Of a stretch of 64,000 bases of DNA, positions 1 through 7,695 are shown piece after piece. The notes beneath the pieces were generated by a model that saw nothing but the letters and a program-made list of their open reading frames with translations, was not told the DNA's origin and searched no databases. This DNA comes from Polaromonas sp. (GTDB lineage Bacteria > Pseudomonadota > Gammaproteobacteria > Burkholderiales > Burkholderiaceae_C). A program made the position numbers and the translations under genes. Positions within the stretch are counted from its first letter, which is position 1, and each line of letters opens with the position of its first letter. Where the stretch lies: contig NZ_JABBPC010000024.1 in assembly GCF_012927485.1 (NCBI RefSeq), positions 1 through 64,000 of the forward strand, read 5' to 3'.

Positions 1-2158
1 AATCATCAATCTGGAATTTGGACAAATGTTGCGAGACTTGGAGTTCTTCACATCTGCCGTGAAATTTCCACAGCCATAGGGGCCGCCTCAACGTGTCAAA
101 TATGTACGCAGGGATCATCCAATAACCTATGGCGGCTAACAACAAAGTTACGAAAAAGAAAGAGGGAGTCTTATCCGTAGGAGCGTACCAATATGCCGTC
201 CCCACAGCGATCAGATACGTGATGAAGAGTGCCCATTTAAGCAGTTGCGTCGCGTTTTCAGCGCTGCGCAGGGCCTTTTCCATACGCAAATCAATATTAG
301 CGTTAGCAGCGACCTCAATTTCACTCAATCGATTAGCGAGGTCACCAATCTGCCCATCACGTAACGTAACCGCTTTCTCAGCCGCTTGTCTCTGGTGCGC
401 ATGGGCTTCTTCAAGTCGCAATATTTGACTTTGCCGTTCAAACTCTTCATCCGCATGGCGTTTAGTCGCCACCGCAAGCGCTTCACTATGCTCCCGCGTC
501 AATGCCGCCTCCCGCTGTTCGGCTATGGTCCGAACCTCTTCCGCCGTACTCAACCGAACAACTTCAAGTAGATCATCCACGTTATCCAACCTGATCAAAC
601 TCGGAAAGGCCATAGTGGACTGCACCAAACAGCGTTGGGCGCGTTGATCACGCATCAACGCCATGAAAATCTCCGCTTTTTTTGGATCAAGCTCCGTGAG
701 GTACTGCCTCACCTTACTTACCAAATCAGTTTGCGGATTCATCACGTAGGAGCAGTTCGCAATTAACTTCTTCCGCGAAAGATTGCCGAGATTGCCTCCA
801 ACCGCAAACCACAGATACCCCGCCAATCGCCGATCGGTCAAGGCAGCGGGAACATCGTCTCTTTTCAGCAGGTTCTTGTAGACGACAAAACTGCTGGACT
901 TGGAAGCAACAACATCATTGCGCGTAACGAACAGCCATTTCGCGTCAGCAATTGACTTCGCATGCTGTATAGCTCCACGCAAACGAAGCACAGTCGCGAT
1001 TGATCGCGCGTCTCGTATCCGTCGTTCAAGATTAGTATGGAGTGGTCCAATCGTATTCCGCAATCCTTCTTCAGTCGCAAGGTCACAAAAAACAAACAAG
1101 TCTTCAATGGCGCAGGTATTTGCATCCAGGATTTCGAAACCCATTGTGACTAGCTGCGACTCCAAATTGTCGAGAGTCGCACGTGCATAGCCCGCGTGAC
1201 TAGAGTCACTGCGAATTCTGTTGCCTAGTGGGCCGAAAGGTGTTTCACCTCTTTGCATTGCCTCCAACGGACCGCGAAGCGTGCCCTTCATTTCCGCAAC
1301 AACATGAGCAAAGACGACCTTCCGTATTCCGGCCTTTTCGATCAATGCGAACAGGTCTTTAGAGAAATCGTGCAATTCAGGAGTACTGAGGTCTAAGAAG
1401 TCAAGGATCAGGGGGCCGTCGAACGACATCGAAATGTTGTTTAAGGCAGCCGAAGAACTTGGCACCTGCAACGTGAGCACCACCTCAGCAATAAGCGCAC
1501 CACCCGTGAGCCGCGTTATTAGGTCGGCGCCAGATCCACCTTGCTCAATCGTCTGAAGTGCAAAGGCTGCAGACAGTACATCAAGAGCTTGATCCAGGTG
1601 AACTGCATCCTGTTCATCATCTACAACATCATTGAGAACAAGCTTCTTTCCTTTGTAGTAGTTTTTCTCGCGTCGATCCACGAAGCTCAAAAAATCAACG
1701 CTTGTTAGTCTCTTCAAAAAGGCATTTTGCAAAGAATCATCGGGTACATGTATGTCAATTTTCTTTAGCGACTCTGATGCAAATTGGCTAAACGATGCCA
1801 GCAGCTGATTTATTCCAGAGTCATTCAATGGAGTTTCCACATGTGGGGAGGGTTCAACCCGATATGTATGTGGCTCACCTGGGTCGATTCGCAACAATCT
1901 AAACTCCGCGAGCTTCTCTGCTAGGCCAGCCGCAACAAGCGGACTCATTGGGATGTCATAGGCTTTCTCAACCGCGCTCGAAAACTCCGCTGGGTCAAAG
2001 CGCCTGTTTGCGCGTTTCGCGAGAATAGGAACGAACAATGGCACCAGCCCGGCCACTAAGTCACCTGTCTTTGAATAGGCTTCTTCGACAAATGCGAAGG
2101 CAACTAACTCTCTGGGACTTATCGCCCCGTTGTTTCCGGTTAAATCAACATTTGTCAT
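1..2158 (-). CDS. Unrecognised coiled-coil membrane protein downstream of hsdS (3' end beyond window)
   Basis: An open frame starts at ATG 2158 (good ribosome site GGATG just upstream) and runs without a stop to base 1, giving at least 719 residues; the C-terminus is outside the window. I do not recognise the family. Residues 245-450 alternate hydrophobic strands with conserved-looking acidic residues (D253, D256, E289, D383 in a RDARS motif, D415 after VTRN, D442), a layout that resembles PIN-like nucleases; this is inference only. Residues 535-625 are Glu/Ala/Arg-rich and look like a coiled coil. Two hydrophobic segments follow at about 643-659 and 666-684, so the protein should be anchored in the membrane with its large N-terminal part on one side. 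It lies 27 bp after hsdS on the same strand and is probably co-transcribed with it. Its sequence is visibly AT-richer than the core genes to the right, suggesting transfer. That it is a real gene is well supported; its function is unknown. Confidence 0.8.
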   Translation of the reverse strand, partial: MTNVDLTGNNGAISPRELVAFAFVEEAYSKTGDLVAGLVPLFVPILAKRANRRFDPAEFSSAVEKAYDIPMSPLVAAGLAEKLAEFRLLRIDPGEPHTYRVEPSPHVETPLNDSGINQLLASFSQFASESLKKIDIHVPDDSLQNAFLKRLTSVDFLSFVDRREKNYYKGKKLVLNDVVDDEQDAVHLDQALDVLSAAFALQTIEQGGSGADLITRLTGGALIAEVVLTLQVPSSSAALNNISMSFDGPLILDFLDLSTPELHDFSKDLFALIEKAGIRKVVFAHVVAEMKGTLRGPLEAMQRGETPFGPLGNRIRSDSSHAGYARATLDNLESQLVTMGFEILDANTCAIEDLFVFCDLATEEGLRNTIGPLHTNLERRIRDARSIATVLRLRGAIQHAKSIADAKWLFVTRNDVVASKSSSFVVYKNLLKRDDVPAALTDRRLAGYLWFAVGGNLGNLSRKKLIANCSYVMNPQTDLVSKVRQYLTELDPKKAEIFMALMRDQRAQRCLVQSTMAFPSLIRLDNVDDLLEVVRLSTAEEVRTIAEQREAALTREHSEALAVATKRHADEEFERQSQILRLEEAHAHQRQAAEKAVTLRDGQIGDLANRLSEIEVAANANIDLRMEKALRSAENATQLLKWALFITYLIAVGTAYWYAPTDKTPSFFFVTLLLAAIGYWMIPAYIFDTLRRPLWLWKFHGRCEELQVSQHLSKFQIDD

Positions 2159-2185
2159 ACCTATTTCATCCTTTTGGTTCGCAGT

Positions 2186-3562
2186 TCAATAAGAAAAACA
2201 TTTCATCAAAACCGTCTGCCGAAGACTCTTGGCACGCGTCAAATTGCTGTCGACTTCCACCTCAACGCCGCGAATAAGGGACAGGCGTCGGTCAACTTCA
2301 GCAAGGATACGGTGCTGCTCTTTCAAAGGCGGCACGGGAATGGCGAATCGCTTAACGTCGCCGACATTGATGTGCGCCACCGTGCTCCCAAGAGCTTGGG
2401 CGCGGTATTGCGACTTCACAACTTCAGAATGCAGCGTGTGCATGAGTAGGCCACTTGAAAAGCCAGCAGATGAGCGCAACAGCATCACACGCTGACCAAG
2501 GCAGGGGGTCATTTGGTCTGGAATCATGATTGCGGTGCCAATTGTTCCCTCGCGGGCAAACACGATGTCACCGGCGCGTGGCGCAAGGCGAGAAATTCGA
2601 TCCTGAAAAGTAGCCTGATCAACATACCGTGCTCGTTCCTTAACAAGCCCCTCCGCTGTCATCCATGTGGTGTCAATACATGGGAAACCATCATCTTGAA
2701 ACCGAGCAGTACTGTGGGGGCAATCTACGATCTGCTCGCAGAGCATCTCTACTGCTGCCCAAACCCATCCACTTGGCAAGTCGCCCAGATTTTCAGTGTG
2801 TAATGGCGCGAGCTCCTTGTACTGGCCCTTCCCTTTCCACTCTTTACGCCGCGCCTCAAGAATCCGCTGCAGAAGCTGCCTACCAGCCTCAAAGCTGCGC
2901 CCTTCCCGGTGGGCTAGTTCGGCTTCTGTGGGGACGAGGCGGCCTTCCACGGCGTCTTTGAGGACGGAGGCTTTGTAGCGTTTGAGGTTGGCCTTGACGC
3001 GTTTCAGGTTGGCGACGGCTTCGTCGAGGCGGGAGAACTGCTTTTCGAGTTCGGCGACGATTTCACGCTGTTGCTCAATGTCTGGCAATGGGATCCGTTG
3101 GTCTTCGAGGAACGCGCTTGGCACTCGACGAAGTCCAACAGCTCCGGTCATGTGGCCGGACGCTTCTTTGCGGAATGTCTGGCTGGACACGAAGTAGTAG
3201 ATGTACCGTGCGTCAACGCCAGAACGCGGGCGAAGAACGTGAAACTCAGTCGAGCCAAAGCCAACGCTGTTTACCAGCATGCGGGCAATGGCCATCTTGC
3301 CGTTTTCCATGCACGGGGTGACCTTGGCAAACAGGATGTCGCCGTCACGGAAATGTGTGTAACCTTTTTTGACATCCGCGTATTTGCGAATGGTCGATAC
3401 ATCAATGCCGCCAGACAGCGCTTCGACCGCAGCCATCGGAACGAATGACACGTCCAAGTCATCATTCAGTGAACTGCGGTCAAGCTTGGGATTGACCTCC
3501 ACTGCTTGGGACAGAGGCACGATGTGCGCGGCGGCGATCACATCATCAGGTACAACACTCAC
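2186..3562 (-). CDS. hsdS: Type I restriction-modification specificity subunit HsdS
   Basis: This is the DNA-recognition subunit that would direct a type I methylase/endonuclease complex to a bipartite target. The 458 residues show the usual two-fold layout: target recognition domain 1 (about 5-160, with the FAKVTPCMENGK signature near 78-89), a central helical spacer (about 161-215, EQQREIVAELEKQF), domain 2 (about 262-410, opening with LPSGWVW), and a C-terminal helical repeat with PPLKEQHRILAEVDRR. The start is GTG 3562, overlapping the stop of the 44-aa ORF as GTGA, which implies translational coupling. The N-terminus is slightly short: domain 1 lacks the LPxGW opening seen in domain 2. 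The partner hsdM is not in the window; if present it should lie beyond base 1. Family assignment is secure; the recognition sequence cannot be read from this. Confidence 0.93.
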   Translation of the reverse strand: MSVVPDDVIAAAHIVPLSQAVEVNPKLDRSSLNDDLDVSFVPMAAVEALSGGIDVSTIRKYADVKKGYTHFRDGDILFAKVTPCMENGKMAIARMLVNSVGFGSTEFHVLRPRSGVDARYIYYFVSSQTFRKEASGHMTGAVGLRRVPSAFLEDQRIPLPDIEQQREIVAELEKQFSRLDEAVANLKRVKANLKRYKASVLKDAVEGRLVPTEAELAHREGRSFEAGRQLLQRILEARRKEWKGKGQYKELAPLHTENLGDLPSGWVWAAVEMLCEQIVDCPHSTARFQDDGFPCIDTTWMTAEGLVKERARYVDQATFQDRISRLAPRAGDIVFAREGTIGTAIMIPDQMTPCLGQRVMLLRSSAGFSSGLLMHTLHSEVVKSQYRAQALGSTVAHINVGDVKRFAIPVPPLKEQHRILAEVDRRLSLIRGVEVEVDSNLTRAKSLRQTVLMKCFSY

Positions 3563-3614
3563 GCCGCCAACTCCCGGTTCATCGCCTCAAGCACCTTAGT
3601 CAATTCCGCGCCAA
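3556..3614. repeat. 59-bp direct repeat, copy 1 (hsdS side)
   Basis: This copy matches 4862-4920 in the same orientation over 59 bp with three mismatches by eye. It covers the end of the 44-aa ORF and the GTGA junction into hsdS. The two copies lie 1306 bp apart and bracket the DUF4062 gene. Confidence 0.85.
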
Positions 3615-3693
3615 CCAGTCGGACCACTCGGGCCATGCCGCCTTTCTGGGCGAAGAGAAAGAGGTAGCCTGCTGTGTATTCGCGCATGTTCAT
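3559..3693 (-). CDS. 44-aa ORF copying the HsdR C-terminus
   Basis: The ORF runs from ATG 3693 (ATGA overlap with the stop of the DUF4062 gene) to TGA 3559 (GTGA overlap with hsdS). Its last ~30 residues align without gaps to the end of HsdR: FAQKGGMARVVRLVGAEL here against FAQEGGIGKVHQLFGAEL there, followed by an almost identical KVLEAMNRELAA ending in both. The last ~59 bp are nearly identical to the hsdR end, while upstream only protein similarity remains. It is therefore probably the tail of a different hsdR allele left after recombination placed the DUF4062 gene between hsdR and hsdS. It could be translated through coupling and keep hsdS expression linked, or be a relic. A function of its own is not supported. 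Confidence 0.6.
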   Translation of the reverse strand: MNMREYTAGYLFLFAQKGGMARVVRLVGAELTKVLEAMNRELAA

Positions 3694-4868
3694 TTTTTCT
3701 TTTCAGTCTGATTGGCCAGCCACGCTTGGCCTTGCGCGGTGAGGCGGTATTTTTGTTGGGGGCTACGGGGGGAGTCTGGATGCGTCATTTCCAACAGGCC
3801 TTGGTCCATCAATGGCTGGATGACTTGGTCCCTGAACTTGGTCCGGTTGGTCCGATTGACCACGGCCATCAAATCGGTTAAGGCCGCGCCAGTGCTGGCT
3901 TTTGCGAGGATTTCGACTTGGTCCCCACTTGGTCCCAACTTGGTCCCTGGCTTGGTCCCTGCGGTGGTCACTTCGGCACCACCTGTCGTGCCCTTGGGCC
4001 GCCACAAAGTCTGGATGAATTGCCCACCGTCTTGCCGAAACTCCGGCGCAGGCAAGCCTGCCTGGGCACACAGGTTGATCATGTCCAGCGTGCCGGTGCC
4101 TGCCTTTTCAATGTAGCGGGCCAAAAACAGCGGCTCGGCAATGCGCGGGCTGCGGGGAATGGATGCATGCGGGCGGCGCAGGTTGTCCACGGTCAGTTGC
4201 GGAGGCAACTCGCCGGGGTTCCAGATTTCGAGCCGATCTGCAAACAGCATGACCTGCACCGAGGCGTTGGAGGTGTAGTCCCGGTGCGCTACGGCGTTGA
4301 CGATGGCTTCGGCCACAGCTTCGCGCGGCAGCTCATAGTCAACCGGGGCCTGTGCGCCTGCTGCGCGGGTGCCCACGGATCTGGCAATTTTGGACAGCAC
4401 AAAATCCGGCGCCTGATCAACCAGGTGATCCACCAGGCTGGCATGGATGGCGGCAATCAGTTCTGGAATATCGCCAAAGCGGCGGCGAATCAGCTGGTCG
4501 CCCGCCTTGCGCACCAGCGCACGCATTTTGAGGTGGCGCGCGCTGTCATCACCACCACGGACATAGATCAGGCGGGGTTTGCCCAAGGTCGTGGCACGGT
4601 CAAATTCGCGTTCAGTTGGCGAGATGCCTTGGGCGTCTTCGAATCCGTAGTCATTGCCAAACAAGGCCAGGTAGAGCGTGCAACGGTCTACTTCGCTCAA
4701 GTACACCGCGTCAGCACGCAGGTCTGCAGCGGGCAGGTCTTCAAACAGGAAAACCTCAAAAAACCGAGACAACAGCGGGTCGGCGTGAATGAAGTCTTTG
4801 ACTGCCCGTCGCTCCAATGCCAGCTCTTTTTGTACCGAGCTAATGAAAATCCGTTGCTTTGCACTCAC
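3690..4868 (-). CDS. DUF4062 / RecG-like HATPase protein inserted between hsdR and hsdS
   Basis: The protein has 392 residues and a GTG start at 4868 overlapping the hsdR stop (GTGA). Residues 6-95 form a DUF4062 domain (RIFISSVQKELALERRAV, FEDLPA, GNDYG, SPTEREFD), a fold related to TIR/nucleoside-binding modules common in defence proteins. Residues 180-290 match the ATP-binding domain of the RecG-C-terminal-like group (HATPase_c_4 type): EAVAEAIVNAVAHRDY at 187, DRLEIWNPG at 211 and EKAGTGTLDM at 255. Residues about 330-385 look like a winged helix (TKFRDQVIQPLMDQGLLEM). DUF4062-HATPase genes often sit in restriction loci, where their role is not established; a regulatory or accessory defence role is inference. 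The gene is bracketed by 59-bp direct repeats, so it may be an exchangeable cassette. Confidence 0.85.
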   Translation of the reverse strand: MSAKQRIFISSVQKELALERRAVKDFIHADPLLSRFFEVFLFEDLPAADLRADAVYLSEVDRCTLYLALFGNDYGFEDAQGISPTEREFDRATTLGKPRLIYVRGGDDSARHLKMRALVRKAGDQLIRRRFGDIPELIAAIHASLVDHLVDQAPDFVLSKIARSVGTRAAGAQAPVDYELPREAVAEAIVNAVAHRDYTSNASVQVMLFADRLEIWNPGELPPQLTVDNLRRPHASIPRSPRIAEPLFLARYIEKAGTGTLDMINLCAQAGLPAPEFRQDGGQFIQTLWRPKGTTGGAEVTTAGTKPGTKLGPSGDQVEILAKASTGAALTDLMAVVNRTNRTKFRDQVIQPLMDQGLLEMTHPDSPRSPQQKYRLTAQGQAWLANQTEKKK

Positions 4869-4920
4869 GCCGCCAACTCCCGATTCATCGCCTCAAGCAC
4901 CTTCGGCAATTCCGCGCCAA
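4862..4920. repeat. 59-bp direct repeat, copy 2 (hsdR end)
   Basis: This copy covers the last codons of hsdR and its GTGA overlap with the DUF4062 gene. It pairs with 3556-3614. Recombination between the copies would remove the DUF4062 gene and most of the 44-aa ORF and restore an hsdR-hsdS junction in frame. Confidence 0.85.
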
Positions 4921-7695
4921 ACAACTGATGCACCTTGCCGATGCCGCCCTCCTGCGCAAACGGGGAGTAGTCAAAGTCGTCGGGTTCGATGCCAAGGTTT
5001 GCGGCGATGTGATCACGGATCATTTCTAGCCAGTGCAGTTGTTCGGGGGTGAAGGAGGTGCCGCTTTGCGCCAACCAGGCTTTGAAGTTGGCATTGACGC
5101 GCTCGGGGAATGGAACCAGCTCATTGTCCTGGTGCATGGCGAAGCGCACCAGGCTGACCAGGTCGGTCAGGATGCGGCGGCGGTTGTCGCCTTTGACTTT
5201 CGTTTTGTCCAGCGCGACGTAGGCTTGCCAGAGCTGGCCCTCGGTCCACAGGTGCGGCGGGGCTTGCAGGGCGTCGGCCAAAGTCTTGAGCGCTTCAAAC
5301 GTCAGGGGTTCAGGGGAACGCTGCGGGCGACTATAAAGAATTTGCAGGGCGGTGATTTCGTCTTTGTGATCGGCGATAAAGCGCTCAAAGGAGTCAACCG
5401 TGCCTTGGGCCCGGTCACGGGCGGCTTCGCTAAAGTTGGCCTCAATCAACATATCTTGCGTGACGGTGTCGATGATTTGCTCGGCCTTCTTTTTCAAGTC
5501 GATCAAAAGGTTCCGCAGCGCCGGGTCGCACAGGGGTTTGGTGGCGTTGGTCAAGCGCTCTTCGACCCGCTCCGGGTGATCGGCGGCCAGGTCGGGGTCG
5601 AGCGCGTCCACAATGCCGCGCGCCAGGTCTTTCAGGGAATAGCCGCCGCTGGCTTGCATGATCTTGAGTCGGTCGGGCTCGGTCAGTTCGCGGTCGAGCC
5701 GGGCCAGGCGGGCGGCGACGCTGGACAGCACTTCGGGTTCCACATTGCCCAACGCCACGGCTTGCAGCAGTTTGTCGAAAGGCACGGACTTTTTCTGGTC
5801 CATGGGGGCGGAGTCGGTTTTGTCTTGCTCGCATACGCCAACGCAATCGACGATGACGAAGTGGTCTTTGGCTTTGGCGTCGGGCGTCACGGCCTGCAAG
5901 TCGGTGGGCGCGATGATGCGCACGCCACGGCCTTTCATCTGCTCGAAGAAGTTGCGGCTTTTGACCGAGCGCATGAACATCACAATTTCGACCGGCTTGA
6001 TGTCGGTGCCGGTGGCGATCATGTCCACGGTGACGGCGATGCGCGGAAAGTAGCTGTTGCGAAAGGCGTTGATCAGGTTCTCGGGCTTTTCGCCGGTGGT
6101 GCGGTAGGTGATCTTTTGGGCAAAGTCGTTGCCCTTGGCAAACTCTTCGCGCAGGATTTCGACAATCTTCTCGGCGTGGTTGTCGTCCTTGGCAAACACG
6201 ATGGTCTTGGGCACCTCGGTACGGCCGGGGAATATCTCGGTGAAGAGCTTGTCGCGGAAGGTGCGGGCTATGGTGCGGATCTGATCCGGGGTTTGCACGG
6301 CGCGGTCCAGCGCGTCGGCGTCGTAGGCCATGTCTTCGTCCAGCTCTTGCCAGCGGGTTTTGCGGTCAGGCGGTCGCGGTAGCCGACGGAGTAACCGGCC
6401 TCGACCTGACTGCCGTGTTCGCTCACCTGGGTGCGGATGCGGTACACGTCGTAGTTGACATTGACGCCATCGGCCACGGCCTGCTGGTGGCCGTATTCCA
6501 TGACCAGGTTTTGGTTGAAAAAGCCGAAGGTCTGCTTGGATGGCGTGGCGGTCAGGCCGATGAGGTAGGCGTCAAAGTATTCCAGCACCTGACGCCACAG
6601 GTTGTAAATACTGCGGTGCGCTTCGTCGGTGACGATGATGTCAAAGGTTTCAATCGGGAAGCTGGGGTTGTAGCCAATGGGTTCGGGTTTGGCGAACAGC
6701 TTGCCAAGACCATCGACGCTCTGCTCGTCGTCTTCGGGCGCCAGTTCTCGGCCTTTAAGCATGCTGAACAGGCGCTGAATGGTGCAGATGGTGACGCGGG
6801 CTGTTGTGTCGAGCTGGTTGCTGGTGAGGTGCTGAACAATGTATTCCTCGCCAAACTTGTAGTTGTTATACGGTGAGGTGTATTGGTCAAACTCCTTCTT
6901 GGTCTGCCGCCCAAGGTTGCCCCGGTCGACCAGAAACAGCACGCGCTTGGCCCCGGCGAACTTGATGAGGCGGTAGATAAAGCTGATGCTGGTAAAGGTC
7001 TTGCCGCTGCCGGTGGCCATCTGGATCAGGGCACGGGGTTTGTTGGCTTTGAGCGAGGCCTCCAGATTGCGGATGGCGATTTTCTGGGCGGGCCACAGGC
7101 CGTCTTCTATCAACGGTGGCATGGTTTGCAGGCGGGCTAGAAAGGTGCCAGCGCTTGCTGCAGACGCGGCAGGTACCGCAAAGCCAGGACTGGTTTCGCT
7201 GGCGGTGCCAGGGCTGGTGGGGCCGGTGTGTACAGCAGCAGACGATTCCCAGCCCTTCTCCCCAATTTTTCCGGGCAGATCTTTCAACCACGCGGCCAGC
7301 GTTTCGGGCCGGTGAAAGGCAAAGACGCTGCGGGCGCGGGGTTGCGGGTCCAGCCCCTGGGTGAAGTGGGTTTCGATGCCGGTGGATTCGTAGCTGAACG
7401 GCAAGGGCCGACGCCAGGCGGGCAGCACGCTCGGCAGGCCCTGGGCGTAGCGGGCCGACTGCACCTCGACGCCGGTGAGGGTGCTGCCTTCCTTCTTGGC
7501 CTCGATCACGCCAGCGGCTTTACCGTCGATATACAGCAGGTAGTCGGCAAAGCCGTAACCGGCGTTAAGGGGAAATTCACGCAGCGCCACACCCCGCGCG
7601 GCATGGATGTTGGCATGCGCCATATCGCAGACGTGCCAGCCAGCTTGCTGCAGTAACGCATCGATGCTGACTCTGGCTTTTTGCTCTGGCGTCAT
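4865..7695 (-). pseudogene. hsdR: Type I restriction endonuclease subunit HsdR, split by a frameshift
   Basis: HsdR translocates DNA with its helicase motor and cuts it. Two overlapping frames together make a normal-length HsdR. The first (7695 to 6268) carries the PD-(D/E)XK-like nuclease domain (D51, IEAKK at 64-68), Walker A (MATGSGKT) and DEAH box (VTDEAHRS) followed by GLTATP. The second (to 4865) carries helicase domain 2 (ITYRTTGEKPENLI, MIATGTDIKP, MKGRGVRI) and the C-terminal domain. They join at about 6365: the first frame reads RDRLTAKP where family members read RDRxTRKTRW, and the second frame supplies RKTRWQELDEDMAYD. One missing C on the coding strand explains this exactly. It is either a real inactivating deletion or a sequencing error. 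A start at ATG 7695 fits. Restriction activity would be lost if the deletion is real. Confidence 0.88.

Follow-up and report, generated by a model that had tools for sequence, protein, structure and literature searches.

Recurrent gene insertion at the hsdR-hsdS junction of type I restriction loci, with a duplicated hsdR end and a putative translational relay into hsdS

Introduction

Type I restriction operons that carry additional genes have been described in several bacteria. In Campylobacter jejuni, the variable accessory R-linked ORFs known as rlo genes lie between hsdR and hsdS (PMC5183652, PMC2928727), and defence or toxin-antitoxin genes, TgvAB and DarTG2, have been found inside type I operons (PMC11411939, PMC12255303). 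The anticodon nuclease PrrC is described as a suicidal guardian whose gene is embedded in the EcoprrI type I operon (PMC3874165, PMC12707154). In EcoKI, hsdM and hsdS are translationally coupled by a stop/start overlap (PMC3510504). Additionally, DUF4062 domains act in phage defence as TIR-like NADases according to a 2026 preprint (PMC13174449). In the passages cited, the rlo genes and TgvAB are already examples of genes that lie between hsdR and hsdS. Open-licence PMC text yielded no description of duplicated hsdR ends, an absence that is weak evidence given the scope of that source; as far as those passages go, the kind of arrangement is known and its border structure is new. While the presence of defence and toxin genes in other defence operons is established, it is less clear how such genes enter without breaking the host operon. 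Here we describe a type I locus in Polaromonas sp. in which a DUF4062 gene lies between two copies of the hsdR end, and compare it with related loci.

Organization of the locus

The stretch of DNA analysed (the window) comprises 64,000 nt of Polaromonas sp., positions 1 to 64,000 of contig NZ_JABBPC010000024.1. The locus is encoded on the minus strand in the order hsdR, DUF4062 gene, 44-codon ORF, hsdS, with the following features:

4865..7695, minus strand: hsdR, type I restriction subunit, with domain matches to ResIII/SWI2_SNF2, Helicase_C and EcoEI_R_C
6268..7695 and 4865..6331, minus strand: ORFs holding the two halves of hsdR, with a frame change near 6365
4862..4920, minus strand: hsdR end and GTGA overlap with the DUF4062 gene (repeat copy 1)
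4877..4885, minus strand: SD-like AATCGGGAG in repeat copy 1
3690..4868, minus strand: inserted gene, DUF4062 (TIR-like), HATPase_c_4 and Fic-like_C winged helix, 392 aa
about 4421..4424, minus strand: scar of a 339-nt in-frame deletion in the DUF4062 gene, with CTGG microhomology
3559..3693, minus strand: 44-codon mini-ORF, apparently a decayed hsdR tail
3556..3614, minus strand: hsdR end kept before hsdS (repeat copy 2)
3571..3579, minus strand: SD-like AACCGGGAG in repeat copy 2
2186..3562, minus strand: hsdS, specificity subunit

Within the first 12 kb, no direct repeat is larger than the one that pairs 3556-3654 with 4862-4960 (99 nt, 81% identical, spacing 1306), and over its first 59 nt the copies differ at three positions counted by eye. 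Each 59-bp copy consists of the last 19 codons of hsdR and a GTGA overlap with the next gene, in which the TGA stop of the tail overlaps a GTG start (4868 for the DUF4062 gene, 3562 for hsdS). The repeat search and the ORF borders thus bear out the 59-bp repeats, three mismatches and shared GTGA overlap of the initial annotation. In a uniform 30-nt scan the second tail of the window matched an hsdR end at 29/30 positions, as against 18-23 in 54 loci where hsdR directly precedes hsdS, and the repeat is therefore not due to chance.

The start of the mini-ORF overlaps the DUF4062 stop (ATGA) and its stop overlaps the hsdS start (GTGA). Sequence comparison identifies it as a decayed copy of the 3' part of hsdR. 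The likeness to HsdR proposed earlier for its N-terminal half extends over nearly the whole ORF, the first part being evident only by comparison with the relatives L031 and L070. The alternative that it is a distinct gene was rejected, as the ORF is an hsdR tail and had no Pfam or PADLOC match. Mini-ORFs occupy the same spot in relatives with a DUF4062 insert, with 54 codons in L024, 53 in L070, 44 in L031, and 37 each in L111 (the same locus as L026) and L025, all in frame to the HsdR end. In Polaromonas L022 and L023 the DUF4062 insert has no separate mini-ORF, and hsdS starts shortly past the DUF4062 stop.

The relatives L023 and L031 read through the position of the hsdR frame change. The window's hsdR may therefore not be intact, with a sequencing or assembly error as an alternative to a real frameshift, and restriction may be off in this genome owing to the frame change. 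The window holds hsdR and hsdS of the type I set, and an hsdM-type gene lies on contig C23 of the same genome (2333-3850). We infer that C23 probably continues the left end of the window; a search for an exact end overlap between the two found none. At its start (2-3850), C23 (L163) carries an SLFN_AlbA_2 fragment followed by the hsdM-type gene. Directly downstream of hsdS, an ORF of at least 719 aa (2-2158) runs off the contig edge of the window, with no match in Pfam, PADLOC or NCBIfam.

The DUF4062 protein

The DUF4062 domain of the window protein was identified by Pfam (1e-18), and the DUF4062 profile also matches the TIR/DUF4062 domain of KpSwz (10wc; E 1e-8). The catalytic Glu position corresponds to E86 in the window and is occupied by E in 28 of 32 aligned proteins; in our own reading of the alignment, E86 is equivalent to E97 of KpSwz. 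By these matches the N-terminal domain is a member of the DUF4062 family reported as NADases, and NADase function is putative. The predicted structure of the full-length relative L023 had a mean pLDDT of 79.8 and a pTM of 0.52.

The gene had been annotated as complete. Its ORF is indeed open, but compared with its family it lacks 339 nt (113 central codons), with a 4-nt CTGG microhomology at the scar. We considered whether the missing central part was an AlbA_2 domain and rejected this, since the full-length protein has no AlbA_2 match. Other in-frame deletions remove 984 nt in L031 and 882 nt in the locus split over L027 and L070. Three deletions would all be in frame with a chance of 1/27 without selection, so they are only suggestive of selection for frame. 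Similarly, the HepT ORF of another insert locus, G202, encodes 40 aa compared with 114 in G204; both of its ends can still be made out by eye.

Survey of related loci

In a family survey of 399 genomes, the HsdR C terminus was matched at E 1e-15 in 43; in an order survey of 399 genomes, the HsdR tail was matched at E 0.001 in 36. Together these represent 74 distinct genomes, with one locus each, which were assigned by hand as direct or insert loci and then tallied by script. The hsdR gene directly precedes hsdS in 54/74, with a 4-nt overlap in 48 of the 54, so that the simple cassette-free locus anticipated by the initial annotation is the common arrangement in related genomes. Inserted genes lie between hsdR and hsdS in 18/74, and two loci fall in neither class (G703, a contig break, and G443, a truncated hsdR). 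The occurrence of both forms supports the earlier proposal of an accessory gene that entered the hsdR-hsdS junction as a unit; the condition named there as refuting it, a lack of any cassette-free locus, does not hold.

For the uniform scan, the 3.2 kb beyond hsdR, or as much of it as the stretch contained, was compared in 30-nt segments with 69 hsdR ends. All 54 direct loci scored 18-23, whereas 12 of the 18 insert loci scored 24-29 (G000, G165, G181, G202, G204, G340, G354, G412, G441, G518, G528 and G677), G340 reaching 29/30. Among 11,949 other stops used as a null, two reached 22/30, one of them being G181's own second tail. The final codons are missing from the second tail of G762, which accounts for its score of 22; a profile search found this tail (E 1e-24). 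A second hsdR end at or near hsdS is thus present in 13/18 insert loci, 12 by scan and one by profile; the profile alone finds nine. No second tail was detected in G027, G142, G355, G540 and G718 (scan 19-20/30). In two of these five, hsdS is coupled directly to the toxin stop (G540) or starts shortly past it (G718). The hsdS gene was not found in G027, G412 and G762. A class survey (33/369 genomes with a match) added second tails in G958 (27/30), G954 (29/30) and G956 (28/30), the genomes classified there and kept apart from the counts above. G703 was not counted among the dual-tail loci, since all that its two contigs have in common is an exact 141-bp end. Searches of viral contigs for HsdR gave no relative, and those of plasmids had no hits reaching 60% identity.

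Inserted genes

The cargo varies among loci and includes DUF4062, MNT-HepT, Phd-ParE, Phd-YafQ, AAA/DUF4143 and DUF559, with RhuM in the class survey. Pfam, run on a part of the cargo genes, identified HepT-like nuclease, nucleotidyltransferase (MNT), PhdYefM, ParE, GIY-YIG, AAA_14 with DUF4143, RhuM, RhuM with Fic, DUF559 and DUF4062-HATPase_c_4-Fic-like_C; the Phd-like and YafQ-like pair were both below Pfam cut-offs. In G165 there are two tandem toxin-antitoxin cassettes, and an HsdR-tail mini-ORF closes each of them; the first gene of G165, MNT, has no full ORF in the ORF listing. Stacked and eroded inserts are also seen in G027 (L108), where MNT-HepT is followed by a C-terminal remnant of a DUF4062 gene. 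In G355 (L185) an AAA_22 ATPase is encoded between hsdR and hsdS, and there is no detectable second tail.

In distant genomes, home-made hsdR, hsdM and hsdS profiles matched beside the DUF4062 gene in 5/41 loci, a count in which distant subunits may be missed and some loci are short. The gene is mostly found away from type I genes and is therefore cargo rather than a fixed type I component. Full-length DUF4062 copies (n=5, ten pairs) are 84-94% identical, compared with 59-79% for HsdR (last 300 aa), and pairs with eroded copies are 74-90% identical; between the window and L023 the values are 87% for DUF4062 and 92% for HsdR. These identities fit movement of the gene between loci.

Origin of the two hsdR ends

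Comparison with relatives of the same genus points to which end is native. Between G165 and cassette-free G049, hsdR is mostly 78-98% identical in 60-nt blocks (one block at 27% is read as an alignment gap) and 63% identical in the last 60 nt. Over the last two 30-nt blocks, the hsdS-linked tail of G165 shares 97% and 87% identity with the G049 end, compared with 53% and 63% with its own hsdR end. Likewise, hsdR of G202 and G276 is 57% identical in the last 60 nt and 97% in the block before, and the last 30 nt of the linked tail in G202 are 83% identical to the G276 end and 43% to its own hsdR. A weaker third pair is G204 and G398, whose linked tail is 77% identical to G398 and 43% to its own end; with hsdR identities of 47-83% and one block at 25%, the divergence in this pair allows no border to be placed. 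In the two same-genus comparisons, judged by identity, the original native end is the copy linked to hsdS, and the end that hsdR itself now has is foreign. The linked tail is closer to the relative's end, and the insertion therefore appears to swap the hsdR terminus and to leave the old end as a mini-ORF. The exchange of the hsdR end proposed by the initial annotation is thus found in these pairs, with a correction: there, the tail beside hsdS is native and the end of hsdR is foreign. In the window, as in DUF4062 loci, both ends are near-identical (29/30 nt), and native and imported copies are for this reason not distinguishable there.

Coupling signals at the junction

GGAG, GAGG or AGGA occurs in the last 24 nt of hsdR in 45/54 direct loci compared with 6/18 insert loci, and the exact AATCGGGAG is found in 16/54 direct loci only. 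None of the three strings is present in the remaining 9/54, including G049, the cassette-free relative of G165. We interpret the SD-like stretches as candidate ribosome-binding sites. The hsdR stop is TGA in 49/54 direct loci and TAA in 11/18 insert loci; among the 12 toxin-antitoxin insert loci hsdR ends in TAA in 10, the exceptions (G518 and G540) having a GIY-YIG-like ORF first. In all, 21 second tails were found in 20 loci, and 16/21 end in ATGA or GTGA. The cargo stop overlaps the in-frame mini-ORF start by exactly 4 nt in 14/21 and does not in 7/21; this hand count (15 by script) drops G528 and G762, where the stop is not the cargo's, and adds L070, whose contig starts inside the cargo. 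Codon conservation in 26 hand-picked loci agrees with a coupling signal at the hsdR end, although the high values are partly a product of that choice, as nearly all have an NREL-type end.

Proposed mechanism and alternatives

We consider it likely that genes were inserted recurrently at the hsdR end and that the displaced end was kept as a translational relay into hsdS. The last codons of hsdR would double as a translation-initiation and stop/start coupling signal for hsdS (AATCGGGAGTTGGCGGCGTGA in the window's subgroup). Accessory genes have been inserted at this junction again and again, each insertion supplying a new hsdR end and leaving the displaced one joined to hsdS in the form of a short in-frame mini-ORF. 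The mini-ORF would take ribosomes from the cargo gene and hand them to hsdS, and from its overlaps at both ends it probably relays translation in this way. The window carries one insert of this kind, with a DUF4062 (TIR-like, NADase-family) HATPase cargo worn down by an in-frame deletion; the wear was presumably tolerated, as it would have left the reading-frame relay to hsdS in place. Selection would then act on the relay, recombination would be the route of entry, and recombination between the repeats could remove an insert.

The junction could instead be a neutral recombination hotspot, at which homologous recombination anchored in hsdR, combined with an illegitimate join, leaves a functionless tail. 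Embedded genes in type I loci have been published, one site being called a potential recombination hotspot (PMC12255303, PMC11411939, PMC5183652), no recombinase family was found among the cargo proteins scanned, and tails are shortened in several loci. Nevertheless, the leftover is in frame, with exact 4-nt overlaps in two thirds of second tails, and in G165 its last 60 nt stay near the native end while its 5' part decays; we regard this explanation as unlikely. A dedicated landing site for mobile cassettes at the hsdR 3' end, loaded by a site-preferring process as in integrons, seems similarly doubtful. Long duplicated tails do show hsdR homology starting near codon -53 (ATGATC; borders by eye) after unrelated cargoes, namely DUF4062 (L024, L070), ParE (G165), MNT-HepT (G762, G958) and perhaps AAA/DUF4143 (G441, weak), with the exceptions of G528, which begins further upstream, and other tails that are shorter. 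The same borders could also arise if selection favoured a start codon that is in frame.

That the repeat is kept for its protein, the mini-ORF being a functional HsdR-tail peptide that might, for example, compete for HsdR contacts, would agree with the open frame and the retained C-terminal residues of HsdR. We find it very improbable, as the length varies between at least 52 codons and, in G181, about 9-10 tail codons joined to the cargo, and conservation in the window and G165 is confined to the last 30-60 nt, with conserved residues such as those of GGLGK and LFG changed upstream. There is equally little to recommend the view that tandem duplication or gene conversion copied the hsdR end locally, in single loci and without relation to insertion. 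The near-identity of the window copies at their end and of those in G354 (93-100% over 90 nt) could be explained in this way, but no second end above 23/30 occurs in the 54 direct loci, and over their last 30 nt the linked copies of G165, G202 and G204 share 77-97% identity with the relative's end and only 43-53% with that of their own hsdR. Insertion with a retained relay therefore remains our preferred reading.

Comparison with known systems

The border structure suggests an answer to how defence genes enter such an operon, namely that an insert brings a new hsdR end and would leave the old end with its initiation signal before hsdS. In genomes with this type of hsdR, the duplicated end may also serve as a short searchable mark of inserts that carry defence genes, both known and unknown.

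Compared by description, the rlo genes share with the window the position of accessory ORFs between hsdR and hsdS, and the cited passages mention no duplicated hsdR end or mini-ORF for them (PMC5183652, PMC2928727). TgvAB and DarTG2 are likewise embedded in a type I operon, with no border structure described in the passages concerned; unlike the window insert, DarTG2 is placed between hsdS and hsdR, in a potential recombination hotspot (PMC11411939, PMC12255303). PrrC is also an embedded gene, but its effector differs, and a link between DUF4062 and the restriction complex is hypothetical (PMC3874165, PMC12707154). Swarozyc, as far as it is described, shares DUF4062 and the catalytic Glu position (E86 in the window) with our protein (PMC13174449), which differs in having HATPase_c_4 and a winged helix, in the loss of 113 central codons, and in that its NADase function is putative. 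A parallel for the junction itself is EcoKI, where coupling by stop/start overlap is also described (PMC3510504); judging from that account, the present loci differ in that inserts have duplicated and displaced the coupling signal that the hsdR end holds.
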